20,934 bases of DNA from a virus: positions 1 to 20,934 of the IMG/VR virus record IMGVR_UViG_3300033143_006499, one strand, 5' to 3'. The position numbers were made by a program, and so were the translations under genes. Under the pieces are notes generated by a model. It was not told where the DNA came from. It saw nothing but the letters and a program-made list of their open reading frames with translations, and did not search any database. Positions 6,498-19,794 of this stretch are shown piece after piece. The first letter of the stretch is position 1. Each line of letters begins with the position of its first letter.

Positions 6498-6929
6498 ATG
6501 CAGAGAGACCTTATCACAAGCATCAAGCCGGTGGAAATCTTGCCGCCTGTCGTTTATGCTGCTGACAATACCCCGGTAGCTATTGATTGCCGTGAGTATG
6601 GGGCCGGTTTTGTTATGCTCCATATTGGCATCGGTGGAATTACCTTCAGTGGCGCAAATAAAATAGAATTTATCATGACTCATAGTGATGACGATTCCAC
6701 CTATACAGCCGTTGCACAAGCCGACGTGCAGGGTGTTACCGTCGGTGCCGGTGGCATCGTGCATAGTCTGATTGTAGAACAAGCCGCTGCTGAAATCGTC
6801 AGGATTGGTTACAGTGGCGAAAAACGTTATGTTAAAATTCTTGCTGATTTTTCTGGAACGCATGGCACCGGTACCCCGTTATCTGCTGTCATGATTTTTG
6901 GCTATCCATCATGGACACCTGTATCTTAA
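6498..6929 (+). CDS. Probable head decoration or capsid-associated protein
   Basis: This 143-residue protein looks entirely beta-stranded and lacks Cys except one near the N-terminus. It resembles a group of small phage proteins usually found right after the capsid gene, starting with an MQRDL-like N-terminus, carrying an IEFIMTHSDDDSTYTAV segment (about 56-72) and ending in KRYVKILADFSG...GTGTPLSAV before a short hydrophobic strand. A role in decorating or stabilising the head surface is inferred from that position; no function is shown by the sequence. The start has a GAGAG SD. It lies nine bases after the capsid stop and one base before the next gene start. Confidence 0.7.
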   Translation: MQRDLITSIKPVEILPPVVYAADNTPVAIDCREYGAGFVMLHIGIGGITFSGANKIEFIMTHSDDDSTYTAVAQADVQGVTVGAGGIVHSLIVEQAAAEIVRIGYSGEKRYVKILADFSGTHGTGTPLSAVMIFGYPSWTPVS

Positions 6930-7539: not shown

Positions 7540-8021
7540 GCAAACAACTTGGTATCAATCTGCGTGACAGCATGACCCCAGCCCTGCTGGAGCTGACAAA
7601 GAAAGTAAAAGATCTTTCAAGACCAATGCGGGATATTGAACGTCAGGTCATGCGGCCACTCAAAGAAAGGGCGTGGAAATCGTCTGGATTAAAAAAAGAA
7701 TCCGGCGATCTCCGTGATTCAGTAAAAACTTTTTCCGGCAAAAAGTCAGCCGGGGTAGGGCTTAAGGCACAGGGACTTGTGGCGGGACGAGCGGTGCTAT
7801 TAAATCAAGGCGCAAAAAAAAATCAGTACCGCAGGAAAAGAAAAATCAAAATCCGGGCGCACAGCAGGCAAGGGCGAGCCGTCGCTGAGCATACACGACG
7901 GAACAATGGATCGCCATGGGGGAAAATTAAAAAAAGTCAGTTTATACCAAGTAAACTATCAGGAAGTGACGAAAAGAAAATTTTCACTATAATGGAGAAA
8001 TATATTGTTCCAACTCGCTGA
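7536..8021 (+). CDS. Neck/tail-completion protein, Mu gpG-like or HK97 gp10-like
   Basis: This basic protein (161 residues from the chosen ATG) has the layout of the phage virion morphogenesis family typified by Mu gpG: an N-terminal helix with LRDSMTPALLELTKKVKDLSRPMRDIE, then KKESGDLRDSVKTFSG (the conserved step of residue spacing around SGxLRDSV), a variable basic loop and a C-terminal helix. HK97 gp10 fills the same slot and is the alternative. Such proteins close the head or finish the tail-joining surface. The ATG at 7536 overlaps the previous stop as ATGA; a TTG at 7521 is possible but less likely. It contains a nine-A run at 7814-7822. Confidence 0.65.
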   Translation: MSKQLGINLRDSMTPALLELTKKVKDLSRPMRDIERQVMRPLKERAWKSSGLKKESGDLRDSVKTFSGKKSAGVGLKAQGLVAGRAVLLNQGAKKNQYRRKRKIKIRAHSRQGRAVAEHTRRNNGSPWGKIKKSQFIPSKLSGSDEKKIFTIMEKYIVPTR

Positions 8022-8406
8022 AACGATGAAATCAATCGTCGGAAAATTAGCTGAAGTTGATTGCCTCGGAACCATTAAGGCGATCAAAAGTCTCAAAGAA
8101 CATGCCAGACATCCAGCCCGTTTCCCCGCTGCTTTTGTTGCACTAGAGACCGGCAAAAGTCTACAAAAGGGAACGTTTCCGACCACGCCTTTTGCATGGT
8201 CAATAATCGTAAAAGGTCGAGACGGCGGACGGGAATTGTTGACCGCTATTGACTGCACACTTGATATAATAGAAGGATTTCAGCCTATTGACACTTTTCG
8301 ATTAGAGTTTTTTGATATTAACTTTTTTGAACAAAAAAAAGAATCGGTATCGTACAAGATAACTTTTACCTGCACGGCTACGGGCCGGAGCAGAACACGG
8401 ATTTAA
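8005..8406 (+). CDS. Probable tail terminator, Mu gp37-like (DUF1834)
   Basis: This protein of up to 133 residues fits the Mu gp37 / DUF1834 group: a helix with FRxPAAFVALE (ARFPAAFVALETG), strands carrying FAWSIIVKGRDGG and a C-terminal FDINFFEQKKESVSYKITFTC strand pair. Proteins in this slot cap the tail tube and join it to the neck. The start is uncertain: TTG at 8005 has a GGAG well spaced (7994-7997) and overlaps the preceding gene by 17 bases, while the ATG at 8026 (126 residues) lies after that stop but has no SD. I prefer the TTG on SD grounds. The next gene starts two bases after the stop. Confidence 0.6.
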   Translation: MFQLAETMKSIVGKLAEVDCLGTIKAIKSLKEHARHPARFPAAFVALETGKSLQKGTFPTTPFAWSIIVKGRDGGRELLTAIDCTLDIIEGFQPIDTFRLEFFDINFFEQKKESVSYKITFTCTATGRSRTRI

Positions 8407-8407
8407 T

Positions 8408-8791
8408 ATGAATGCGAGAACGTTGAAAAATGCAGATATTGAAGAGTTTTACAGGCGGAAAGCATTGGCCGTCTACGAATCGCTCTGGGAGATCAGGGAA
8501 CATTTGACTGATGATTTTCAAATTGCCAAAAAAGAGCTTGAGTGTCAGGGCATCGACGTGCCTGATAAAGTGCAACCGGTGAGTGGCATTGTTCAGTTCC
8601 GCCGGAGCGTTGCCAATGAACATGCTGGCAACTGGATTCTGTTTGAATTGTCTACTGGTTATTCGCTGGGCAGTCTGGATTCTGAATCTGATGTACTTGT
8701 GGAGCAATGCAGGGAGGTGGCAAAGGCAAATCAGTTTTTTTTAGCTCATGCATTAGGGAAGAAAGCGGATCAGGAGGGCAAAATAACGTAG
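8408..8791 (+). CDS. Probable tail assembly chaperone, short (G-like) form
   Basis: The zero-frame product is 127 residues and is not recognised by family. It is mostly helical at the N-terminus (IEEFYRRKALAVYESLWEIREHL), with a later beta part around VSGIVQFRRSV and GNWILFELSTGY. Its likely role comes from the signal in it: at codons 111-112 the heptamer T TTT TTA lies in the correct phase for a -1 ribosomal frameshift, which would join residues 1-112 to the overlapping downstream frame. Tail assembly chaperones such as lambda G/GT are made this way and wrap the tape measure protein. The final 15 residues (ending GKKADQEGKIT) would be specific to the unshifted form. It lies upstream of the tube gene, an unusual place for such a pair. 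Confidence 0.6.
   Translation: MNARTLKNADIEEFYRRKALAVYESLWEIREHLTDDFQIAKKELECQGIDVPDKVQPVSGIVQFRRSVANEHAGNWILFELSTGYSLGSLDSESDVLVEQCREVAKANQFFLAHALGKKADQEGKIT
8737..8743 (+). promoter_or_regulatory. Candidate -1 frameshift site U UUU UUA
   Basis: The eight-T run at 8735-8742 followed by A forms a slippery heptamer. In the zero frame (codons CAG TTT TTT TTA) it reads T_TTT_TTA, the canonical phase. The -1 frame is open from here to a stop at 8947-8949. AAAGG lies 10 bases upstream and the strong anti-SD match AGGGAGG (8711-8717) about 20 bases upstream with no start codon to serve it. I see no clear downstream stem-loop or pseudoknot. Confidence 0.6.
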
Positions 8792-8802
8792 TTAGGTCAG
8801 TA

Positions 8803-8949
8803 ATGTCATGGCTGAACGCTGCTCATGTATTAGCTGACAACATGGTTATTTTGGCACATAGTTGGAGGTTTAGTGACCCTTGGAGTATGACACCGCAGAT
8901 CACGCAGGCAACGATTAATGCGGTGAATCGAAACAATAAAAAACAATAG
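8803..8949 (+). CDS. Downstream (T-like) part of frameshift pair, possibly also made alone
   Basis: The frame is open from 8707 to a stop at 8947-8949, one frame back from the preceding gene. A -1 slip at 8737-8743 would give a 180-residue fusion: 112 residues of the upstream protein plus 68 from this frame, beginning at 8743. A separate 48-residue product starting at ATG 8803 is also possible, since AGGT lies five bases before it. The C-terminal part has WLNAAHVLADNMVILAHSW and SDPWSMTPQ, loosely like the LA-W-MTP pattern of chaperone T domains; that comparison is weak. The stop is followed after eight bases by the tube gene. The alternative is a short independent gene with no frameshift. 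Confidence 0.6.
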   Translation: MSWLNAAHVLADNMVILAHSWRFSDPWSMTPQITQATINAVNRNNKKQ

Positions 8950-8957
8950 GAAATATC

Positions 8958-9959
8958 ATGGCTACAATTGAAGTACTGCAACCCGGCGTGTATGCGATAA
9001 CTCCATATATCCGGCTTTTCAGGGATGAGGCGTGGGAGGGCTGGACGCTTCCAGGGTCACATCAAAATATGACTGTTTCTCCCGATGAAACAGATGATTA
9101 CAATAGCCCAAACCGCACCGATATCGGGAGTTATGGGCTGGATGTTTTTTCATTTTCCCTTCTCAAGAAAAAATCACCCTACGTTCTAGAATTTGACAAC
9201 CCGAGCGAGGATATTGTCGCCATGTCACTTAGTGCGGCACTGGTTAAAACTACAGTCGCAGCCGGTACTGGGGTAACAGTTACGCGGATGGCACCCGCAG
9301 CAGGTGGATATATTTTTCTTGACAAACGGGGTATTTCGAGCGATGTGATGACCCGAACCAACGGCGATAGTGCGAGCGATTGGGTAACGGAAACAGTGTA
9401 TGCAGTCGGTGATTTTCATGTTCCGACAACCCCGAACGCACATTTTTACGAATGTACAATCGGTGGCACGTCAGACGTTTCTGAACCAACCCAAACCACG
9501 GATGGCAGCACCTTTGCCGACGCTACAGTAACATGGATCGACCGGGGCCTTATCCTTGCCGCAACGACAGACTACTCGGTGGCTAATGCCGAACAGGGAC
9601 AGCTCGCAACGGCAAAAACAGGCGGAAGCCTAGTACAGGGCGAACCGCTGTCTATCGAGTTTGATCACGGTGAGGCAGTCACTTCAACATACCGAAAAGG
9701 GAAGAAATTTGAGGTTTATGGTCAATTCCGGTTTGAGGGATACAACCTGATTGACGACACAAATGAAAAAATTACTGGGCTGGCCCTGTGGTGCAAATTT
9801 AAAGGCATGGTGGATTCAAATTTTGCTGCTGGCGATGCGCCTATTGTGCGAAAAGTCGAGATCTTCCCTGAGCAACCTGATTTCAACAGGGTTGGCCTTG
9901 AAAAACCCGAGGATTGGATTGGTGATGATGCTGAGCGATACGTAAGCATTGCGGTGTAA
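8958..9959 (+). CDS. Major tail tube protein with an inserted surface domain
   Basis: This 333-residue protein is taken as the tail tube subunit: it is the abundant-type protein directly before the tape measure, and its C-terminal part has KKFEVYGQFRFEGYNLIDD (about 247-265), a tube-fold strand arrangement. Residues about 141-197 are different: W142, YAVGD (148-152), PTTPN (156-160), YEC (164-166), GTS (170-172), EPTQT (176-180) and VTW (191-193). That spacing is the small carbohydrate-binding-like repeat found in many phage fibres and decoration proteins, apparently inserted in a loop. On a tube it would be repeated along the tail surface. The SD AGGAAA sits well before the ATG. No sheath gene is near. 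Confidence 0.75.
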   Translation: MATIEVLQPGVYAITPYIRLFRDEAWEGWTLPGSHQNMTVSPDETDDYNSPNRTDIGSYGLDVFSFSLLKKKSPYVLEFDNPSEDIVAMSLSAALVKTTVAAGTGVTVTRMAPAAGGYIFLDKRGISSDVMTRTNGDSASDWVTETVYAVGDFHVPTTPNAHFYECTIGGTSDVSEPTQTTDGSTFADATVTWIDRGLILAATTDYSVANAEQGQLATAKTGGSLVQGEPLSIEFDHGEAVTSTYRKGKKFEVYGQFRFEGYNLIDDTNEKITGLALWCKFKGMVDSNFAAGDAPIVRKVEIFPEQPDFNRVGLEKPEDWIGDDAERYVSIAV

Positions 9960-9962
9960 CAT

Positions 9963-12900
9963 ATGCCTTCTGGTTTAGATTTTTACATAAATTTTAACCC
10001 CGATGGGGCGGTGAAAGGAGTTGACGCTGCGGTCAAGCAGGCCAAGCGGGCGGAGGCTGAATATCGTAAAGCCTCCGTCGCTGTCGGCAAGTTCACCGGT
10101 GCGCTGGATGTTCAGCGGGCTAAGGTCAAGCAGCAAGAGGCGGGATTAAGTATCCTTGCTGATAAGCTGGCTATTGCCAAAAAAGCCGAAACCGACCTAG
10201 CTGCAACATCCAGACGTGCCGGGAAAACTGCCGTCAAGGCCAAGGCCGCATCTGTCGCAGCAGTAAAAAAACTGACTGCTCAGTATGAGGTACAGGAGGC
10301 ACGGGTCAAGCAGGCTTCGGCGGCTGCTGATCAGCTCGCTGGTGATCTTGAAAGAGTCAAAACGGAACAACTCAACCTCGCTGCAAGCTCAAAAAAAGCA
10401 ACGGCGCAGTCTGATAAGCTTCAAAAGGAATTTAATCAGCAATCTGTTTCTGCTAAAAAAGCTGCGGCAGGTGCAGAAGAGTTAGACAGGAAGTTAAAAA
10501 AGGTCAGTGCGACCGAAAAGAAGATAAGTGGCAAGGGTATCAAGGCACTTGTAATCGCACTTGCAACGGGTTTAGCTGCACGGAAAGCAGTCGATATTAT
10601 CATGTTGGCAGATAGTTACACGCTGCTAAATGCTAAAGTCAAAATCGCCACCGATTCCACAGAGGAATATAGGGCCACCCAGGCTCTCCTTCACGCTCAA
10701 TCGCAGGATAGCAGGTCACTAGTTACTGAAAACACAGCATTATATTCAAAATTACAGCTATCGCTCAAGGATACTGGGCTGCAAGGTTCACAAACACTCT
10801 CAATTGTTGATCTGCTCAATAAATCTCACAAGATTTACGGGACAACGATGCAGGAATCCACTTCTTTTAACCAGCAATTTGTCCAGTCAATGGGTAAGGG
10901 CAAATTAGAAGGGGACGAACTTAAAACAATGTTGGAGGCAAATAGTTACTTTGCCGGTCGATTAGCAGAGGCTATCGGGGTTGCCACAGGCGAATTGAAA
11001 GATATGGGTGCCGATGGATTATTGACAACCGAGTTAATGCTTGAGGCTTTTCCTAAAATGGCCGCAAGAATTGAAAAAGATTTTAAACAGATGCCTATTA
11101 CTATCCGAGATGCTGTTAATACAGTTGTAAATGCATTTGGAAAGGCAATCAATAAGGGCAATGAGACTGCGGATGGCACTAGTCAGGTAGCTGAGGCTAT
11201 TGTGAATCTTGGCAGAGTCTTGGGGCAGAATCAGGGTTCCATTGCTGATTTTTTTGCTATATTAATCAAAGGTGCAGAGGGTGGTGTCCGAGTAATGTCC
11301 GGGCTGGTCGGCGTATTACTAACGCTAGAGTCCGGGTTTCACACGCTGGAAAAGGGGTCGGCGAATGTTTTGGCTGCAATGTCGTTGATCACCGACAAGG
11401 CAGGCCTTACCAGTGGCGAATATGAAAGATGGCGTGATGTTGCTAAACAGGCGGGAGAGGTGGGTGAAAAGGCCGCTGGAAAAGCTGCAAAAGCTTTCGC
11501 CTCTATGGCAGGGGAGCAACAAAAGTCCACAGGTAAGTCGGTTGATGAAATTAAAAAAGAGCTGTTGGCTATAGAAGGTAAAAAGGATGTCATAAAGGCC
11601 GTTGGTGGTACGGTAAAAGAGGCCAGCAAAGAAGAGATAAAGTTTTTAAAAGAAAAAGAAAAAGAATGGAAAAAATATCTCGATATAGTCGAAGAAGCGA
11701 ATGATAAGCTTACCGAACTTGGCAGCTTTGGCGGAACTGGACAGCGCGGTGGAATAGCCAAAATCAATGGCGAATGGCAGAACTATGCAGATAATGCCCA
11801 AATAGCAACCAGCCTCCTCAAGGATTTTAACAATACAGCCTTTCTCGGTACCGGACAAATTGCTGATAAAATTTTTGAACTGTCCCTTGCTGGAAAATCC
11901 GATTTAGAGGTCTGGGAAGCCCGAAAGCGAGCCGCCGAAAAATACACAGAGGTGGCACAATCAACAGCAGCAGAAGTAAAAGCTCTGTATGCAGCTGGTG
12001 ACACCGAGGCCGGGGCGAAAAAACTCAAAGAGCTGGAATCGCTAACCGGCAAAGCGGAAAGTGCCTATAGCTCTCTTGCACGGGAAGTAACGGCAGAATT
12101 CACCCCAGCAATGGAAGCAGCCCATGATAAAGCAAAAGAGGGGGTGAAGGGATATGAAAAAGCGGCCAAGAAGTCAATGGCCGAGGCAAAAAAACATTAC
12201 AAATCCGCCGAAGATGCCGCTAAATCCTGGGGTGATAAACAACTCGACCTTGAAGCAAAACTTGCGGACATAGGGCGAAAGCAGGCCGAGGCATCAGCGA
12301 AAGCGTCTGGCTCTGTCACGGCGATGGCATCAGCAGCCCGCGCCAGTTACAATAGCATGGTCAGCGAGGCAGAAAAGTACGAAGACAAGGCATTTAAAGC
12401 ATTTAAAGCTGGTGATTTCGACCAGGCCGCTAAATTTGCCGAAAAAGCAGTCTCGGCATGGGATTCCCTTGGCAGCGCAGTGGAGGCGGGCGGTAAACAG
12501 GTTATCACGGCAACCGAAGCTCTCGGTGCTCAGGCTCGTGGCATCAAAAGTGCTGGCGAACTTGGCATTAAAGCCTTACAGGCAAAGGAAAAAGCCGAAG
12601 AAAAGGCAGGCAAAGCAGCGGAGGCAGCGGCTAAAAAATCCGAGACAGCGAAAGCACGAGAGGCTGAAAAGGTCAAAAAGCTTGAAGCTGATAAAGAAAA
12701 AGTAATAGTGTCAGCTGAAGAGGGGGCGCAGAGGGCTGCACAGGGGACGCTGGAACTTAACGACCTATTAACTCAGTCCTACAGGAATCAGGCCGCTGGA
12801 GCGCAAAAACTCGCAGATGTATTAGACCAGGAGCATGATTTTTCCGGTGCTCAGGCCGCAGCAAAAGATATTGAAAAATATGGTAAAATAATTGCCGACC

Positions 12901-13532
12901 GTATCAAAAAAGACAAGAAGATGCATGAAGCTAATATCGCAGGATCTGCTACGGCGAAAGATGCATCAATTAAGGATATCGAAGCCATAGGTGCGGCAGC
13001 TGACAGGATAGCCGAAAAAAAACGAGTCATCAAGATGGAAATCCGTGAGGTTTCCGGGGCGAGTGGTGGGGCGGCTGTTGGGGTTCAGGGCGCGGCATTC
13101 GGGGCGATTGCTGGCGGCATGCGCTGGGCTGATGGTCTGGACGGATTAAAGATTCCTGGCTCGCCAAGTCGGGTAGACACCATGCCTTTTTTCCTTGCCA
13201 TGGGTGAAACCGTGACCAATGCGGACGCGGCGCAAAATGCCGGGTACGACACTTGGAAGCATATTAATAACAAAAACATGATTGGCGCGGCGCAGTCCAT
13301 GGTTGCTCATCACCCACATTTGCAACAAATATTTGCGCCGCCTGTGAATATCCAGGTAGCGCAACCGCAACAGCAGCAGGGCGGGAGTTTACCGAGTAAT
13401 ATGGTGCATGTCCGCACAATTAACCAGCAGGACGGCAGAATCACCAATGAATGGATGTCAGCGGAAGATCTACAATACAAACAACAATATGAGCAACGGG
13501 TCAGCAGCAATCGAAAGAGGTTTCAGGTATGA
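9963..13532 (+). CDS. Tail tape measure protein
   Basis: At 1189 residues this is the longest protein here; it sets tail length (about 180 nm at 0.15 nm per residue) and is ejected with the DNA. Residues 1-190 and 480-1010 are Ala/Lys/Glu/Gln-rich coiled coil. Residues about 190-400 match the tape-measure N-terminal domain (TIGR02675 type): LLNAKVKIATDS, VTENTALYSKLQLSL, GDELKTMLEANSYFAGRLAEA and MPITIRDAVNTVVNAFGKAI. Residues 425-460 are hydrophobic, as in many tape measures, and may help membrane passage. TPR-like pieces such as FKAGDFDQAAKFAEKA appear around 815-835. The Gly-rich C-terminal part with PGSPSRVDTMPFFLAMGE is also typical. The SD is weak (GGTG), and it starts three bases after the tube gene. 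Confidence 0.96.
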   Translation: MPSGLDFYINFNPDGAVKGVDAAVKQAKRAEAEYRKASVAVGKFTGALDVQRAKVKQQEAGLSILADKLAIAKKAETDLAATSRRAGKTAVKAKAASVAAVKKLTAQYEVQEARVKQASAAADQLAGDLERVKTEQLNLAASSKKATAQSDKLQKEFNQQSVSAKKAAAGAEELDRKLKKVSATEKKISGKGIKALVIALATGLAARKAVDIIMLADSYTLLNAKVKIATDSTEEYRATQALLHAQSQDSRSLVTENTALYSKLQLSLKDTGLQGSQTLSIVDLLNKSHKIYGTTMQESTSFNQQFVQSMGKGKLEGDELKTMLEANSYFAGRLAEAIGVATGELKDMGADGLLTTELMLEAFPKMAARIEKDFKQMPITIRDAVNTVVNAFGKAINKGNETADGTSQVAEAIVNLGRVLGQNQGSIADFFAILIKGAEGGVRVMSGLVGVLLTLESGFHTLEKGSANVLAAMSLITDKAGLTSGEYERWRDVAKQAGEVGEKAAGKAAKAFASMAGEQQKSTGKSVDEIKKELLAIEGKKDVIKAVGGTVKEASKEEIKFLKEKEKEWKKYLDIVEEANDKLTELGSFGGTGQRGGIAKINGEWQNYADNAQIATSLLKDFNNTAFLGTGQIADKIFELSLAGKSDLEVWEARKRAAEKYTEVAQSTAAEVKALYAAGDTEAGAKKLKELESLTGKAESAYSSLAREVTAEFTPAMEAAHDKAKEGVKGYEKAAKKSMAEAKKHYKSAEDAAKSWGDKQLDLEAKLADIGRKQAEASAKASGSVTAMASAARASYNSMVSEAEKYEDKAFKAFKAGDFDQAAKFAEKAVSAWDSLGSAVEAGGKQVITATEALGAQARGIKSAGELGIKALQAKEKAEEKAGKAAEAAAKKSETAKAREAEKVKKLEADKEKVIVSAEEGAQRAAQGTLELNDLLTQSYRNQAAGAQKLADVLDQEHDFSGAQAAAKDIEKYGKIIADRIKKDKKMHEANIAGSATAKDASIKDIEAIGAAADRIAEKKRVIKMEIREVSGASGGAAVGVQGAAFGAIAGGMRWADGLDGLKIPGSPSRVDTMPFFLAMGETVTNADAAQNAGYDTWKHINNKNMIGAAQSMVAHHPHLQQIFAPPVNIQVAQPQQQQGGSLPSNMVHVRTINQQDGRITNEWMSAEDLQYKQQYEQRVSSNRKRFQV
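10110..10400 (+). repeat. Internal tandem repeat in the tape measure N-terminus
   Basis: Residues 50-86 and 110-146 align without gaps at a 60-residue period: both start VQ-A-VKQ, carry L-A---L in the middle and end LAA-S--A, with about 15 identities in 36. It looks like an old duplication in the coiled coil, possibly a way in which tail length was changed. Confidence 0.5.
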
Positions 13533-13927
13533 GCGAAAACGGAATCGGACTGTTGCCAATCATTGCAGAATTTGCCTCATTCGGACTAGACGTAACCGGA
13601 CTGGAGCAGCGGCATGTTGCCGAATCCCACACACAGCAGGACGGCGATGAACTGATACACCAGTGGGAGCGACAGACCAAAGGATGGCCGGTGTCAATTA
13701 TGGCGTACCGCGAGGGTAACACCCTATTGGGATATTTTACAATGACGGAATACTACCTTCTGGTCAGTATAAAAAATATTCCACAACCCTTGACCATCAC
13801 CCATCCTAATATTCCGTCTGGGGTGCAGGTGATATTGGAAAGTATTCATTTACAGCCAGTGCAAGGTATGGTAAAATACAATTCTGACACGCTATTTACC
13901 GGTTCAATAAATTTTATTACGGTGTAA
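13529..13927 (+). CDS. Tail protein of unknown function after the tape measure
   Basis: This 132-residue protein is not recognised. It appears mostly beta-stranded with long runs of branched residues (YYLLVSIKNI, VQVILESIHL) and no Cys or membrane segment. It lies directly after the tape measure, where distal tail or tail-tip initiator proteins are usual, and overlaps its stop as ATGA at 13529-13532. GAGG (13517-13520) lies eight bases before the ATG. A role at the tube end is inferred from order only; a distal tail protein is usually larger than this, so a chaperone or minor tail protein is an alternative. Confidence 0.7.
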   Translation: MSENGIGLLPIIAEFASFGLDVTGLEQRHVAESHTQQDGDELIHQWERQTKGWPVSIMAYREGNTLLGYFTMTEYYLLVSIKNIPQPLTITHPNIPSGVQVILESIHLQPVQGMVKYNSDTLFTGSINFITV

Positions 13928-13929
13928 AA

Positions 13930-15003
13930 ATGCCAGTTACAGTAGCAGATACAAAAATTCTCCATCCACAGGCTCGGCTCGGAGATGAAGCGGCAGGGAA
14001 TGGTGGCCGTGCGGCGCACCCTTGGCAAATCGTCCAGAGCGGTGCGCCTGGGGTTGTTTTTCAGGAATTATTTGAAGGTGACCTCATCAATGGAAAATCC
14101 CAGTTAGTAAAATGGCTGTTTGCTAACCTGAATGCTGATAATATTGCTCTTCAATTTCCTGAAGTTTGTATTTTTGCCCTGCCTGACACATCGGTTGGTG
14201 CAAAAAATATCACATACCTGTATGTAGGGACTCAGGACGGAACTGCAGCTGATGATATCGAGTCCACCTCGGAGAAATACGGTGCCGGAATCGTGGTGGC
14301 TCATCCAGCACCTCACCAATTTACGGTGCAATGGTTCCACGAGGATCTTGTTTACGGCGGGACAAATCAGGTGATCGAAAACGGGAAAATCATCAGGCTC
14401 GACCAGCGAGGAACTTATGGCGGGGCCGGTCTGTATGAAAAATTAATTGTGAATTCCGTGCCGACCGTGCATGATACAACTCAAACCACGTTTACCACAT
14501 CGGCTGATGCGGTCAATACATATGAGGCTGGTGATCTAGTACAGACGCTGGTGGATTTGGATACTGTGCAGGTTAAGGCGGAGATCGACGAGGTTGTTGA
14601 CACCGGACTGACGACAACGACATTTGACGATTCCGGGATTGTGGTATATAATAAATATTGTCCTCGGTGTGTCGTGACATTCGAGACTGAGACGGCTACC
14701 ACTTATAAAGCCACTATCGACGTATTGGGCTGGGAGTCCAGTGGGGTATTGGTCAGCGGGCAGTTGATCAGCGCGGATTTTGAACCAGTTAATACCGATC
14801 CTGAGTATAATGGTATCATGTTTAAAGTCCCGGCGAATGCATTTGGCGGGGTTCCATTTGTTGGTGATACATGCACCGTTGCGTTTAATCAATCGGCCCT
14901 GCCGGTCTGGCAGCGGCTAATCACCCTCCCAGGGGCATCGTCTGAAACCAAAACCATTACCATTGGGGCTGGCGGACAAAGCACGAATGAGCCTCCTGCA
15001 TAA
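13930..15003 (+). CDS. Tail structural protein of unknown function
   Basis: This 357-residue protein has no family I recognise. It appears beta-rich, with strands such as ITYLYVGTQDG and QFTVQWFHEDLVYGG in the first half, a Thr/Asp-rich linker (about 187-225, with DTTQTTFTTSADAV) and a second domain containing a CPRC pair and WESSGVLVSGQLIS. The size and place after the tape measure fit a tail-tip or baseplate component. GGTG lies five bases before the ATG, two bases after the previous stop. An AT-rich gap of 88 bases follows, the largest in the tail region, so this may end a subgroup of genes. Confidence 0.72.
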   Translation: MPVTVADTKILHPQARLGDEAAGNGGRAAHPWQIVQSGAPGVVFQELFEGDLINGKSQLVKWLFANLNADNIALQFPEVCIFALPDTSVGAKNITYLYVGTQDGTAADDIESTSEKYGAGIVVAHPAPHQFTVQWFHEDLVYGGTNQVIENGKIIRLDQRGTYGGAGLYEKLIVNSVPTVHDTTQTTFTTSADAVNTYEAGDLVQTLVDLDTVQVKAEIDEVVDTGLTTTTFDDSGIVVYNKYCPRCVVTFETETATTYKATIDVLGWESSGVLVSGQLISADFEPVNTDPEYNGIMFKVPANAFGGVPFVGDTCTVAFNQSALPVWQRLITLPGASSETKTITIGAGGQSTNEPPA

Positions 15004-15091
15004 TAATTTTCCTTGTATAAAATATCCTACCATGATATGCTGATTATATGAGTTTGAGTTATTAATAAAATCAACATAGAGTCGACGGGAA

Positions 15092-15349
15092 ATGAAAGAC
15101 AAAAAAAAATCAGTGATTGGTTATATAACCTACGATGTACGTGTGGCATGCCCACACTGTGAGAATATTTTACATCTCAATCAATATCCATACGATTCAG
15201 ATGAAACGGAATATCACTCGACCGAGGACGAGCTTGGTTTGGCGTTATTTGGTGGGCCGAACACGCCCGCGACGTGGCATGGCATCAGCGTTGAATATAA
15301 ATGCTGCGCATGCGAGGAAGTATTTTGTATCGGATCTCTGGAAATATAG
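15092..15349 (+). CDS. Small zinc-ribbon-like protein in the tail region
   Basis: This 85-residue protein has a CPHC pair near residue 20 and a CCAC pair near residue 71, with another Cys (VFC) after it. Pairs of CxxC this far apart commonly form a zinc ribbon. There is no resemblance to a known structural protein. The start codon is followed by nine A (15101-15109), read as three Lys codons, a place where polymerase or ribosome slippage is possible. A GGGA lies immediately before the ATG, so the SD is too close and weak. The 88-base AT-rich gap upstream sets it apart from the tail genes, and it may be a separately acquired gene. Confidence 0.65.
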   Translation: MKDKKKSVIGYITYDVRVACPHCENILHLNQYPYDSDETEYHSTEDELGLALFGGPNTPATWHGISVEYKCCACEEVFCIGSLEI

Positions 15350-15354
15350 CACCG

Positions 15355-16293
15355 ATGTCAACGGTCAACTTTTCAGCAACAATACTCGCCCCAACTTCTG
15401 GGGCGACCGAGGCAACGCCACCGTGTCAGGTGATACAACAACAGGACACGACCGATACGGTAAATTGCTCCGATGATAACGAGTTGCTAAATGTCATGCT
15501 GCGACTGTTGGGGTTTGATATCCCGGTACCGACCGAGTCCGAAGAATATTCGACCTCAGTACTGGTCAAGCCACTCAATACCTATACAAATCTAAATATC
15601 AGCCTAACCAAAGGCACCCTGTCCGACCCAATAATAGAGTCAGGGGACAGCACGAAGATTGTTACCATAGCTCTCTCGGATTTTGTGGCAACGGAAAACG
15701 GCGGTTACGTTGATCTTACATCCAAAATGGATTTAACAGAATCCGACGATATCACATCGGCCCGGTGGGTTAGCAATCCGACTGATAGCCAAATGGTGTC
15801 GATCAATCCGAAACCATCCGTAAGCGTTGACAAGAATAACCGGTTCAGTCTCGATCAGGCCATGGGCGGGCGACTGCTGGTTAATGTTTGGTCAATCGCC
15901 GAACGATACAAGATTAATATCACTCTAGGCGATGGCGAGGTCGAAGGCGCGTACCAGTCCTCGTTGATCGTAACAGCGGAGGGGTGTGAGGGCAGGCCGA
16001 CCCGGTTTGAGATTGACGTTCCGGAATGCAAGCAAAATGCACTGTACAATAAATATGGCTGGCCGGGCGACGGTGAGGGCGGCGACACAATCATCAAGGA
16101 GAAAATTCCAGAGGTGGAGGGTGCCGATGCCGAGCAGAGGTACTGTTTGTGTGATAACCATCCTTTTGTTGGCGCGACCCCCTCATCCGCCGCGCCTGCT
16201 GATCCGGACAACGCATGTCTCGGTGGGTCGTGTGACCAGATTAACCCAACATGCGTCCCCGATGATGGCGGGAATCATGATCATTGTGGGTAA
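15355..16293 (+). CDS. Cysteine-rich tail protein of unknown function
   Basis: From the ATG at 15355 this gives 312 residues. I prefer it to the in-frame ATG at 15301, because the extra 18 residues are just the preceding gene read in another frame; the chosen ATG lies five bases after that gene's stop. It has a beta-rich body (strands such as STSVLVKPLN and LLVNVWSIAERYKINITLGDG) and ten Cys, six of them in the last 60 residues: CLC, CLGGSC, NPTC and a final HDHCG. The end is also rich in Gly, Pro and Asp. The Cys cluster could bind metal or form disulfides; no known tail-tip domain is recognised. Confidence 0.75.
   Translation: MSTVNFSATILAPTSGATEATPPCQVIQQQDTTDTVNCSDDNELLNVMLRLLGFDIPVPTESEEYSTSVLVKPLNTYTNLNISLTKGTLSDPIIESGDSTKIVTIALSDFVATENGGYVDLTSKMDLTESDDITSARWVSNPTDSQMVSINPKPSVSVDKNNRFSLDQAMGGRLLVNVWSIAERYKINITLGDGEVEGAYQSSLIVTAEGCEGRPTRFEIDVPECKQNALYNKYGWPGDGEGGDTIIKEKIPEVEGADAEQRYCLCDNHPFVGATPSSAAPADPDNACLGGSCDQINPTCVPDDGGNHDHCG
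15386..15406 (+). other. Strong hairpin just inside the cysteine-rich gene
   Basis: TCGCCCCA (15386-15393) and TGGGGCGA (15399-15406) are perfect inverted repeats with a five-base loop. The stem begins 31 bases after the ATG at 15355. It has no following T run, so it does not look like a terminator. Confidence 0.5.
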
Positions 16294-16320
16294 CTAATTC
16301 AAACAAAGAGGAAAATATAA

Positions 16321-16620
16321 ATGAGTCACTATGCAGAATATGGGATTGGCTACAAGGTAACCGCAAGCGATGATATTGCAGAAGATGATCTCAATGACGG
16401 GTTATTTGAATACCTTGACAGGGTAATAGGCGGCGATTGGGAACATTTTAGTACTGGTATTGATGGGGAGTGTACCTATAATTATGTTGTGGTGAAAGAT
16501 GCCTTTAAAGATGGCCTCAACTTGACTGACAAGAAGAAAACACTCGACGATGAATTAAAGAGATTAAAACTAGATGCTGTTGGCAAGTTTGGTGATGTAG
16601 GCGGGCTATTTTACTGTTGA
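16321..16620 (+). CDS. Small acidic protein of unknown function
   Basis: This 99-residue protein is not recognised. It is acidic in the first half (DDIAEDDLNDGLFEY), has an aromatic beta-like stretch (ECTYNYVVVKDAF) and a Lys/Asp-rich helix in the last third before a GGLFYC end. It has a good SD (GAGG with AAAA, about 9 bases before the ATG) and no overlap with either neighbour, with gaps of 27 and 56 bases. GC is near 42%, lower than the neighbours. It may be an accessory gene and not a virion part, but this is inferred from size and composition. Confidence 0.7.
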   Translation: MSHYAEYGIGYKVTASDDIAEDDLNDGLFEYLDRVIGGDWEHFSTGIDGECTYNYVVVKDAFKDGLNLTDKKKTLDDELKRLKLDAVGKFGDVGGLFYC

Positions 16621-16655
16621 CACATAGGGCTATTTGACCTGATATTAGAATATCA
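16617..16655 (+). promoter_or_regulatory. Weak promoter candidate with a dyad near its -10
   Basis: TTGACA (16617-16622) is followed 18 bases later by GATATT (16641-16646, 4 of 6 to TATAAT). The dyad TGATATT-AG-AATATCA (16640-16655) has perfect 7-base arms and covers the -10. A second TTGACC is at 16634-16639. The ACCAA element of P1 and P2 is absent. The dyad could be an operator or a short RNA hairpin. Confidence 0.3.
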
Positions 16656-16676
16656 ATCTACAAAATCTATCACACT

Positions 16677-17498
16677 ATGCCGACAGTTAACCACACGGAA
16701 ACCATAACCGCCAAATCAACCGGCGACGCTGCCTTGACCGATTGGCTACATATCAGTCAGGACAGAATCGACGAGCGGTTTAATTCCGTCACGGTGCAAA
16801 AATTGCGCCAGATGCTCGGTGTCATCATGGGCGGTGGATCCCCTTATGATGTACTGACTCAGCAATGCCCTGTTCGGAGGCGGGTTACTCCTGATGGGGT
16901 GATTGCCTCGTATACCGCTACTGTTTTGGTTGATCGGTCTGCGTCGCTTGAGGGCAAGTACAATCTCACCTGTGACGGTTATGAGGTTCGCGGGCCATAT
17001 AAGACCACTCGTTCAAAAGCCGGTGAAATTTGGACTGAAGGTCGGGAAGTGGTTGAACTAGGCTGGCTTCCGCGAACATTCACAGCGCGTCAAACCTGGG
17101 GGCCGACAATCCCGCTGACATGGACGCAAGAGAACGGCTTTTTTCACCCTGAAGCGGGCGAGGCAATGTTCAAAGTTTCCGGCACTGCGGATCTTGACCG
17201 GTGGACAATACTCGTTGAACATCAGCAGGGCCAGCCGTTTACAGATACCTCATTGCCGGTCGATGCTTGGTGGGGTGACAATCAACAGGCGCATGGCGAG
17301 ATTTTAATCCCCGGTTGCGTGCTTGCCGCGCTGAAGGAGTGCCCGAATTTGAGCACTGGCGGGTTGGGAGATGATGACCCGGCGACCGGTGAGTATTGGT
17401 TTCAGCTCAATCCGACACGCTACGTTTATTATAATGGTTGCACTGGAGAGATACTTTTGGTAACATATGATGAGGATGACCAAGAAACTATAACATGA
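16677..17498 (+). CDS. Tail-tip protein of unknown function
   Basis: This 273-residue protein is unrecognised but has the look of a virion protein: Trp- and Gly-rich, beta-stranded, with no membrane segment. Segments of note are an N-terminal helical part with RIDERFNSVTVQKLRQMLG, GYEVRGPYKTTRSK in the middle, and the C-terminal WFQLNPTRYVYYNGCTGEILL. Five Cys are spread through it. No SD precedes the ATG at 16677, and the 56-base gap before it holds the dyad at 16640-16655. It ends nine bases before the next gene, whose SD overlaps this stop. Confidence 0.72.
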   Translation: MPTVNHTETITAKSTGDAALTDWLHISQDRIDERFNSVTVQKLRQMLGVIMGGGSPYDVLTQQCPVRRRVTPDGVIASYTATVLVDRSASLEGKYNLTCDGYEVRGPYKTTRSKAGEIWTEGREVVELGWLPRTFTARQTWGPTIPLTWTQENGFFHPEAGEAMFKVSGTADLDRWTILVEHQQGQPFTDTSLPVDAWWGDNQQAHGEILIPGCVLAALKECPNLSTGGLGDDDPATGEYWFQLNPTRYVYYNGCTGEILLVTYDEDDQETIT

Positions 17499-17507
17499 GG
17501 TGAGGGC

Positions 17508-17816
17508 ATGACAACGTGGAAGGTGACGAAAATAAATGATGTTGGTCAATTTCTCAAGCCTCAAATTATCGAGGCGGATGATCCGCCAGTGGATGGATAC
17601 ACGGTGGAATGTAAAGAAATCGAGAATAGTGAGCTCTATCATGTATTGATAAAGCGCATCGAAGAATTAGAGCTTTTCATTCGGGACGAGGTAGCCTGTC
17701 CTGAGAGAGTTGACGAATATGACCACGCGCACGGTCTGGATCCGTGCGGTGAGTGTATTTGTTGTTTGCTTCACGGTTCAACGTCCGTGCAGAGTGCAAT
17801 ATTGAATTTAAATTGA
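17508..17816 (+). CDS. Small protein with a C-terminal cysteine cluster
   Basis: This 102-residue protein is not recognised. It is acidic in the middle, and a helix with HVLIKRIEELELFIRDEV (about 46-63) may form a coiled coil. The C-terminal third carries DPCGECICC (78-86), a dense cysteine cluster that might bind a metal or an iron-sulfur cluster. A strong SD (GAGGTGAGGG) lies directly before the ATG. It shares the cysteine-rich character of the larger proteins on either side, so it may belong to the same structure, for example as a small partner or chaperone. Confidence 0.68.
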   Translation: MTTWKVTKINDVGQFLKPQIIEADDPPVDGYTVECKEIENSELYHVLIKRIEELELFIRDEVACPERVDEYDHAHGLDPCGECICCLLHGSTSVQSAILNLN

Positions 17817-17827
17817 GGAAGTGAAAA

Positions 17828-18046
17828 ATGCAAGTTGAATATAAAGTTGGTGATATATTGTTGGGAGAACTCCCATATTTAAAAGAGTGCGAAGTTGAAG
17901 AAATTGCTATAAAAGCCCAATGTATCAAAATAGATGGGGATTGGTATCAAGCCGCAGATATAACCACACGAGTCAAAGCCGTATTAGGAAAGGTTGTTTA
18001 CAGAAAAAAATGGTTTAGCACTGAAAGGATTGTTCAATATTTGTAA
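17828..18046 (+). CDS. Small protein of unknown function, AT-rich
   Basis: This 72-residue protein is not recognised. It is small and mixed in structure, with GDILLGELPYLKECEVEEIA in the first half and an RVKAVLGKVVYRKKWF segment later; no motif points to a function. The SD GAGGAAGTG is close to ideal. GC is about 35%, well below its neighbours at 50-58%, the most marked composition change in the window. It follows the previous gene by 11 bases and has a 29-base gap before the next. The base composition suggests recent acquisition. Confidence 0.68.
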   Translation: MQVEYKVGDILLGELPYLKECEVEEIAIKAQCIKIDGDWYQAADITTRVKAVLGKVVYRKKWFSTERIVQYL

Positions 18047-18075
18047 ATATAACGGTTTTAATAAGTAAAAAATAA

Positions 18076-19794
18076 ATGACAACCGCCAACACATCACATA
18101 CCATTCAGCCTCGCCGGGTATCGACTAATCAATCAGGTGGATTCCTGCGCTTGTCCGATAAAAAACCGGGCGAGACGCTGAATACTGACCGGATGACCGT
18201 CGGTGATGCGGCGGCGGCACTGGCTGGGATTTTTGGGCAAGGTACGTGTGGAGAACCGGACCAGGCTGCTGCTTATCGGGGCGAAGTTGAATCGGGCCAG
18301 CTCCCGGAGCAGGGTATAGAGAGTTATCTTCAGACAAAATATCCCGGCGTGGGCGGAGCGCAGGAACTAGCTGCCGCATTTGGCATTGACAGTTTATGTC
18401 CCGCCACCATGGCACCGACCGGACGGGTCACCCTGCCTGTTTACGTCCATGCATCCAGTCAGGCGGTGCTCGACGATTATGTTTTGCATAGTTATGATTC
18501 TGCAAAATCCGGGCCGAAAATCGTTCATGAAGACATTTTAGTAAAATTTGAATTTTCTAACACACCTAACCTCCCTATCCATTATTTTGTTGATTCAAAA
18601 AAACTTGCCTCATATTTAAGAAGCTCTAGTGCAATTTATGAGTGGCGCGGTGGAGTGAAAAACAATCGTGGTGAATTTATTGATCCGCCACCGGTTAACA
18701 TCACAGGCGGGCAGATCCACCTACCGGGTTATTATTCTGGAATCCTGCTGATCCACCGACTGCCAATAATTTATCACACTTGGAAAATCACCCTTGGTGG
18801 GGTCATGCTCGGCGGAGGGCAGCGAGAATATACTGGGTTGGTGTCGGCTTTTTCGCAGGCTTTTGGCCTCGACCCAGTCGATCAGGAACTTGGTGAGGCT
18901 GTTGCTAAAGACGATCCGGCAGCGCAGTGTCCGGCGACTGGAGTTGACTCCAGCACGGGGTCTGTTGTGGTTTGCAAAAAAGATCCGGTCACCGGCGACA
19001 TGATCTGCGATAGCGATGAGGTTGACGGACGGGATGTTAAATGTTTTGTTGAGGTAAACAGAGAACTTAGACGACAATGTACTGATGAATATGTTAAAGA
19101 TTTGCCCACCGAATACCGCCCTGTCACCTGCCCAGATACTGTGACCCCGACAAACAATAGTCCCGCCGCCCTGAACTACAACCCGGCACTGCCCAAATAC
19201 TATCATATTGTGGGCAGAATAACAGTGCCGGAATACACCATGGAGGGGGTTCCACCGCAAATCACGGCGGATGAATACAAGAAGAAATGCTGTCATAATG
19301 CCGTGAGAGGCAATTGTATACCACATTGCCGCGAGACTAAGAGTGTTTTGCACGGCCCCGTGGAACCAGAGGGCGGACGCGAGGTGGTGATAGCTGCATA
19401 TAAAGGCAAGACTGTATTAATTCCGGTTTTGCCCATATCTGGAGTTTGCGGAACGTTAACAAAAACGCTAGTTGATCCTCCTCAGGATTGTGTAAGGTGC
19501 CCAGGATCATATTTCTACATAAAAAATATGGACGCTCAGGTAAAAGTATTTGCTGATAACATACTTATATCTGACACTTACGATAACTCAGGTACGCCTG
19601 GAGCACCCGTTAACATCAAGATTAATTTACCAGACAAATCCATAGCGCATCGAATAGAGCTGTGGTATACAGGCGAGGGGAGTACGTGGTGGGTAAACTA
19701 CGACTACTTTCATGGGGAGGAATACGTTGACGGCGGGAGTTTTTCTGGAGCGGGTGCGGTTGGGTTAGCTTGGGAGAAGGAATATGAGTGTTGA
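18076..19794 (+). CDS. Large cysteine-rich tail-tip protein of unknown function
   Basis: At 572 residues this is the second-largest complete tail gene. No known domain is recognised. It looks like several beta domains: an N-terminal Gly/Ala part with DRMTVGDAAAALAGIFG (38-54), a middle domain with TGRVTLPVYVHASS, a region rich in Pro and Cys, and a C-terminal sandwich-like domain with YFYIKNMDAQVKVFADNI near 480-500 and WWVNYDYFH near 537-545. It has 16 Cys, including CC and NCIPHC near 410-425 and CVRC near 475. This is unusual for a phage tail protein. It may be a receptor-contact or baseplate component. The SD before the ATG is weak, and it overlaps the next gene by 11 bases. Confidence 0.7.
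   Translation: MTTANTSHTIQPRRVSTNQSGGFLRLSDKKPGETLNTDRMTVGDAAAALAGIFGQGTCGEPDQAAAYRGEVESGQLPEQGIESYLQTKYPGVGGAQELAAAFGIDSLCPATMAPTGRVTLPVYVHASSQAVLDDYVLHSYDSAKSGPKIVHEDILVKFEFSNTPNLPIHYFVDSKKLASYLRSSSAIYEWRGGVKNNRGEFIDPPPVNITGGQIHLPGYYSGILLIHRLPIIYHTWKITLGGVMLGGGQREYTGLVSAFSQAFGLDPVDQELGEAVAKDDPAAQCPATGVDSSTGSVVVCKKDPVTGDMICDSDEVDGRDVKCFVEVNRELRRQCTDEYVKDLPTEYRPVTCPDTVTPTNNSPAALNYNPALPKYYHIVGRITVPEYTMEGVPPQITADEYKKKCCHNAVRGNCIPHCRETKSVLHGPVEPEGGREVVIAAYKGKTVLIPVLPISGVCGTLTKTLVDPPQDCVRCPGSYFYIKNMDAQVKVFADNILISDTYDNSGTPGAPVNIKINLPDKSIAHRIELWYTGEGSTWWVNYDYFHGEEYVDGGSFSGAGAVGLAWEKEYEC

Follow-up and report, generated by a model that had tools for sequence, protein, structure and literature searches.

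A putative frameshifted tail assembly chaperone pair located upstream of the tail tube gene in an IMG/VR virus record

Can a tail assembly chaperone pair coupled by −1 frameshifting lie before the tail tube gene rather than after it? The question is raised by a locus in IMG/VR record IMGVR_UViG_3300033143_006499, of which positions 1 to 20,934 were analysed as a single stretch of 20,934 nt (the window). The order of tube, chaperone and tape measure genes is very stable in long-tailed phages. In the original prediction, ORF 8408–8791 and the −1 frame overlapping its end were read as a relocated frameshifted chaperone pair, and this reading is supported by the conservation of the slip site in relatives. 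From the sequence comparisons described below we put the probability at roughly 0.7 that the ORF encodes the chaperone, that slippage at T_TTT_TTA would generate a 180 aa form and that the pair is homologous to F10-like chaperones while lying upstream of the tube gene. A frameshifted chaperone pair is itself of a known kind, and the interesting parts are the relocation and the altered slip cassette. The features of the locus are listed in Table 1.

Table 1. Coordinates of features at the chaperone locus of the window
Feature	Position	Strand	Basis
Probable tail terminator, 1 nt before chaperone gene	8005..8406	+	Weak Gp37 match, E 0.0027; position
Putative tail assembly chaperone, zero-frame product, G/E-like, 127 aa	8408..8791	+	ORF; C-terminal motif CREV..N.FF
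SD-like AGGGAGG (codons AGG GAG G of Cys-Arg-Glu-Val)	8711..8717	+	Sequence; pairing energy
Slippery heptamer T_TTT_TTA	8737..8743	+	Sequence; codon place as T_TTT_TTC/T in relatives
T-like −1 frame extension of 68 codons, giving a 180 aa fusion	8743..8949	+	Open frame; relatives' −1 relation
SD-like AGGAGGG just before zero-frame stop	8772..8778	+	Sequence; possible role in reinitiation
Possible independent 48 aa start, ATG, AGG 6 nt upstream, inside hairpin	8803..8949	+	SD energy, hairpin
Major tail (tube) protein	8958..9959	+	phrog_807, 2.6e-11
Tape measure protein, 3 nt after tube stop	9963..13532	+	PF20155, 8.4e-39

The zero-frame codons at 8735–8743 are TTT TTT TTA, which places the heptamer in phase, and the zero-frame stop lies 45 nt beyond it. 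The −1 frame is open from 8692 and ends with a TAG stop at 8947–8949. The sequence thus confirmed both the in-phase heptamer and the open −1 frame that had been claimed, and the predicted product sizes of 127 and 180 residues match the computed reading frames. Across the window's genes there are 42 in-frame X_XXY_YYZ heptamers (Y=A/T) in 6746 codons, and the one at this locus has the longest −1 extension among those not merely entering a listed gene. The probability of a random heptamer falling within the overlap was 0.12–0.18 and that of the −1 frame staying open by chance across the 166 nt gap to the tube gene was 0.10. Taken alone, the slip site is only moderately unusual, and these chance estimates are suggestive but not decisive.

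If positions 8792–8957 were noncoding they would constitute by far the largest intergenic gap in the window, the others being at most 88 nt, which argues that they are coding. Codon usage in ORF 8408–8791 was typical of the window's genes. For the −1 extension as a whole the codon score was weak; usage at 8743–8802 was non-coding-like, though this part overlaps the zero frame, and 8803–8946 scored slightly better. Another in-phase heptamer, A_AAT_TTT at 13909–13915, is located three codons before the stop of ORF 13529–13927, with the gene at 13930–15003 in its −1 frame; it is probably a chance occurrence because the latter gene starts at an ATG of its own.

Neither the 127 aa nor the 180 aa protein gave a significant match in Pfam, PHROGs, PDB, phages or 398 Pseudomonadota genomes. 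When single sequences were compared by hhalign, the 48 aa part weakly matched rcc01693-like second chaperones (E 0.0038, probability 9 %) and the results were otherwise uninformative, as were AlphaFold models built without alignment (pLDDT 41 and 32). The phages recovered from viral contigs, by queries with the chaperone, tube, portal, terminase, capsid, adaptor and tape measure, were all distant or differently organized, and scans of genome contigs gave no match with the tube and a single contig with the capsid.

Relatives were instead found by searching whole genomes with the tube protein. Its match to phrog_807, a family that takes in the solved major tail protein YSD1_22, does not depend solely on a promiscuous insert, and its closest relative itself matches phrog_807 at 7.6e-41. 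The insert domain, at about residues 124–211, is also carried by other phages, in their head decoration and LamG-type proteins. Tube homologues were distant (22–34 % identity) and were present in 22 of the 398 Pseudomonadota genomes. In the class of the best match (that of G094; loci L056–L087), 20 of 48 genomes had tube matches, with several matches in a genome. This suggests that related prophages are numerous in this small bacterial class, which may also be the host group.

The relatives' loci, which are prophages, read terminator, tube, chaperone, short −1 ORF and tape measure. The chaperone matched Phage_TAC_7 (6.3e-7), phrog_7608 and the phrog_1442 tail assembly chaperone. The second domain (GHxxVWxYPW) could be paired with its chaperone at 14 loci. 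In all of them an in-phase T_TTT_TT(C/T) was found at the two Phe codons of the C-terminal CREvNPxFF, and the second domain was in the −1 frame, again in 14/14. These loci are related to each other and not independent; the chance expectation for TTT preceded by a codon ending in T is about 0.10 per locus. Homologues lacking the heptamer or keeping it out of phase, which had been named as evidence against frameshifting, were therefore absent from this set. The zero-frame stop was 42–288 nt downstream of the heptamer in the relatives, compared with 45 nt in the window, and the extension was 56–115 aa, compared with 68. An SD-like GGGAG was usually present about 10 nt upstream of the heptamer, and anti-SD pairing of the CREV codons, 8–10 nt from it, ranked within the best 10 % of local positions at 12 of the 14 loci. 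Many of the relatives' loci also had stable downstream RNA.

The end of the window ORF could be compared codon by codon with these chaperones. In the window the codons are TGC AGG GAG GTG GCA AAG GCA AAT CAG TTT TTT TTA (C R E V A K A N Q F F L), and in L086 they are TGC AGG GAG TTG AAT CCC CAT TTT TTC (C R E L N P H F F). In both, codons four and five, counting from the conserved Asn, are the slip codons, and the window has three extra codons (AKA) between CREV and N. The loci and the window together contain 205 Phe-Phe sites in ORFs of 60 residues or more. With one short indel allowed, the window's motif score was reached by 17 relatives' chaperones and the window only, and by 0 of 187 unrelated sites (shuffle p 7.5e-4), the tests on CREV..N.FF having been made after the likeness had been noticed by eye. 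A whole-domain HMM comparison between the window and the relatives' chaperone was weaker (p about 1e-3). For the second domain, AHSWRFSDPW in the window resembles GHSxVWDYPW (GHxxVWxYPW) by eye, with about 3 % of background sites scoring as high, and T-domain profile similarity between the window and the relatives was not significant.

It follows from the three-codon insertion that AGGGAGG corresponds to the relatives' SD-like element, shifted from about 10 to 19 nt from the heptamer. Its anti-SD pairing energy is −11.6 kcal/mol, in the top 0.3 % of local positions, and it has no start codon at usable spacing. The original prediction was correct on the presence of this element without a start codon. 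The element is not at a standard stimulatory distance (19 nt versus about 10), and at this spacing it should stimulate slippage less. No stable structure was found in the 50–60 nt after the heptamer, a stretch among the least stable 4 % of local windows. A hairpin at 8780–8852 (−21.5 kcal/mol) was rejected as a classic slip stimulator: it begins 36 nt past the slip site, which is too far. Slippage may thus be weaker than in the relatives, because the SD is displaced and there is no near downstream structure.

On the frameshifted chaperone reading, we infer that ribosomes slip at this site and that the products act as chaperones. Most ribosomes would finish the 127 aa form, and a minority would slip back one base on the heptamer to give the 180 aa form, whose C-terminus is T-like. 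Lambda gpG/gpGT, whose roles in tail assembly have been described (PMC5009743), suggests by analogy that the short form would coat the tape measure protein and that tube subunits would be recruited by the long one. The three-codon insertion would have increased the distance between the SD-like stimulator and the slip site.

The gene order in the window is chaperone, tube, tape measure, whereas in all relatives the tube comes first and the chaperone second. The chaperone is between tube and tape measure in every relative with an identified chaperone and in F10, likewise in Casjensviridae-type and Cylindrospermopsis phages, and again in head-related phages with an identifiable chaperone. The pair is consequently outside the tube–tape measure interval, the typical (arguably not defining) place of G/GT. 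The unusual place claimed for it is borne out by the relatives and by those of the examined annotated phages in which a chaperone is identifiable, all of which have the other order. The accompanying claim that the tube gene follows the pair and adjoins the tape measure gene, with no chaperone candidate between, is borne out by the 3 nt gap (tube stop 9957–9959, tape measure ATG at 9963). The pair may have been translocated, which is the reading adopted here, or the tube–tape measure block may have been exchanged instead. A further and more doubtful suggestion is that the slip cassette of a translocated pair is decaying while a separate T start has arisen, so that a frameshift-coupled pair would be turning into two genes.

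Other parts of the window were also compared. The gene that follows the capsid gene, at 6498–6929, encodes a protein with 54 % identity to one of Manatee Spring phage ctOK67 (MW202613); no closer named match was found. This similarity, combined with unrelated tail genes, indicates a mosaic genome. Downstream of the tape measure gene, the scanned proteins of 13529–19794 had no confident PHROG match, and this region is an uncharacterised tail tip module.

The separate ATG at 8803 pointed out in the original prediction is present, and the dual-product option based on it stands. It is 11 nt past the zero-frame stop, and its weak SD (−3.6) is about as strong as those of neighbouring genes (−3.3 and −4.2). 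Several features were overlooked earlier, namely AGGAGGG, the weak SD, the hairpin, which encloses the ATG, and the missing near structure. AGGAGGG may hold ribosomes for reinitiation at 8803, which is a serious alternative or addition to slippage; slippage may be weak or supplemented in this way. The rival that survives best is one in which both routes operate, weak slippage giving little 180 aa fusion and reinitiation giving a free 48 aa T-like protein. This would be a state between a frameshift pair and separate genes, and it overlaps the favoured reading. It would account for a slip site that is kept while both of its stimulators are weakened and the ATG is usable, but no need for free T-like products is known in lambda-type tails, and we regard it as unlikely.

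A more radical version would dispense with slippage. In this case there would be two ordinary coupled genes, 8408–8791 (127 aa) and 8803–8949 (48 aa), and the heptamer would be a relic or a chance occurrence: ribosomes stopping at 8791 would be held by AGGAGGG, the hairpin would be opened and translation would restart at the ATG. The closeness of the ATG to the stop, its AGG 6 nt upstream and a strength like that of neighbouring starts fit this arrangement, as do the second SD before the zero-frame stop, the hairpin over the ATG, the missing downstream stimulator, the displaced upstream SD and the codon score of 8803–8946. Separate second chaperone genes also exist in other phages, such as L017 and L022. 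However, the heptamer is at codons homologous to those of a conserved slip site, the −1 relation holds in 14/14 relatives, the SD at 8803 is weak, and in L059 and L060, both relatives, the T frame offers no start codon ahead of the domain. Two fully separate genes therefore appear distinctly improbable.

It is also conceivable that ORF 8408–8791 is another connector or tail gene whose motif match arose by convergence. Consistent with this, the first product has no profile match to Phage_TAC_7 (PF10109) or phrog_7608, which the relatives do match, its N-terminal 90 residues are unlike theirs, and only the C-terminal motif is shared with their family. This would nevertheless require the motif, the SD-like codons, the heptamer and the frame to agree by coincidence, and would leave the window with no other chaperone candidate that fits in the 3 nt between tube and tape measure; we judge it very unlikely. 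Least probable of all is that the homopolymer of 8 T is misread through an indel error or slips during transcription, known at runs of 9 A or T (PMC5009743), so that T9 would encode a single 180 aa gene, given that relatives from other assemblies share the −1 relation with short T runs, that past the heptamer codon usage is coding-like in the zero frame and not in the −1 frame, and that the window's other structural genes are intact.

If the frameshifted pair does lie upstream of the tube gene, the order of tube, chaperone and tape measure is not essential, and the window pair could be used to separate the effect of operon place from that of product ratio in tail assembly. The relatives provide a natural series in which the tuning of a bacterial −1 slip by SD spacing and RNA structure can be followed.

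Among known systems, the closest are F10 gp12, of the phrog_7608/Phage_TAC_7 type, and L056–L087. In Pseudomonas phage F10 (L096:2450-2853), gp12, common to about 30 Pseudomonas phages, ends with T_TTT_TTC in phase; its −1 extension, which contains GHHHVLEYPW and is not annotated, terminates just ahead of the tape measure gene. F10 and L056–L087 share with the window CREvN..FF, T_TTT_TTN at matching codons, a second domain in the −1 frame, SD-like codons upstream and a homologous tube. They differ in their order of tube, chaperone and tape measure, in an SD spacing of about 10 nt, in frequently having a downstream structure and in a T domain that is clearly GHxxVWxYPW, whereas in the window the pair precedes the tube, the SD is at 19 nt, no near structure is present and the T domain has diverged. 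Phage P2 E/E′ slips at T_TTT_TTG, and its family (PF10109, Phage_TAC_7) is matched by the relatives' chaperone but not by the window protein. Lambda G/GT resembles the pair in its two products and in a −1 slip that occurs at low level toward the end of the first frame, both predicted for the window, and differs in being located between the tube and tape measure genes.
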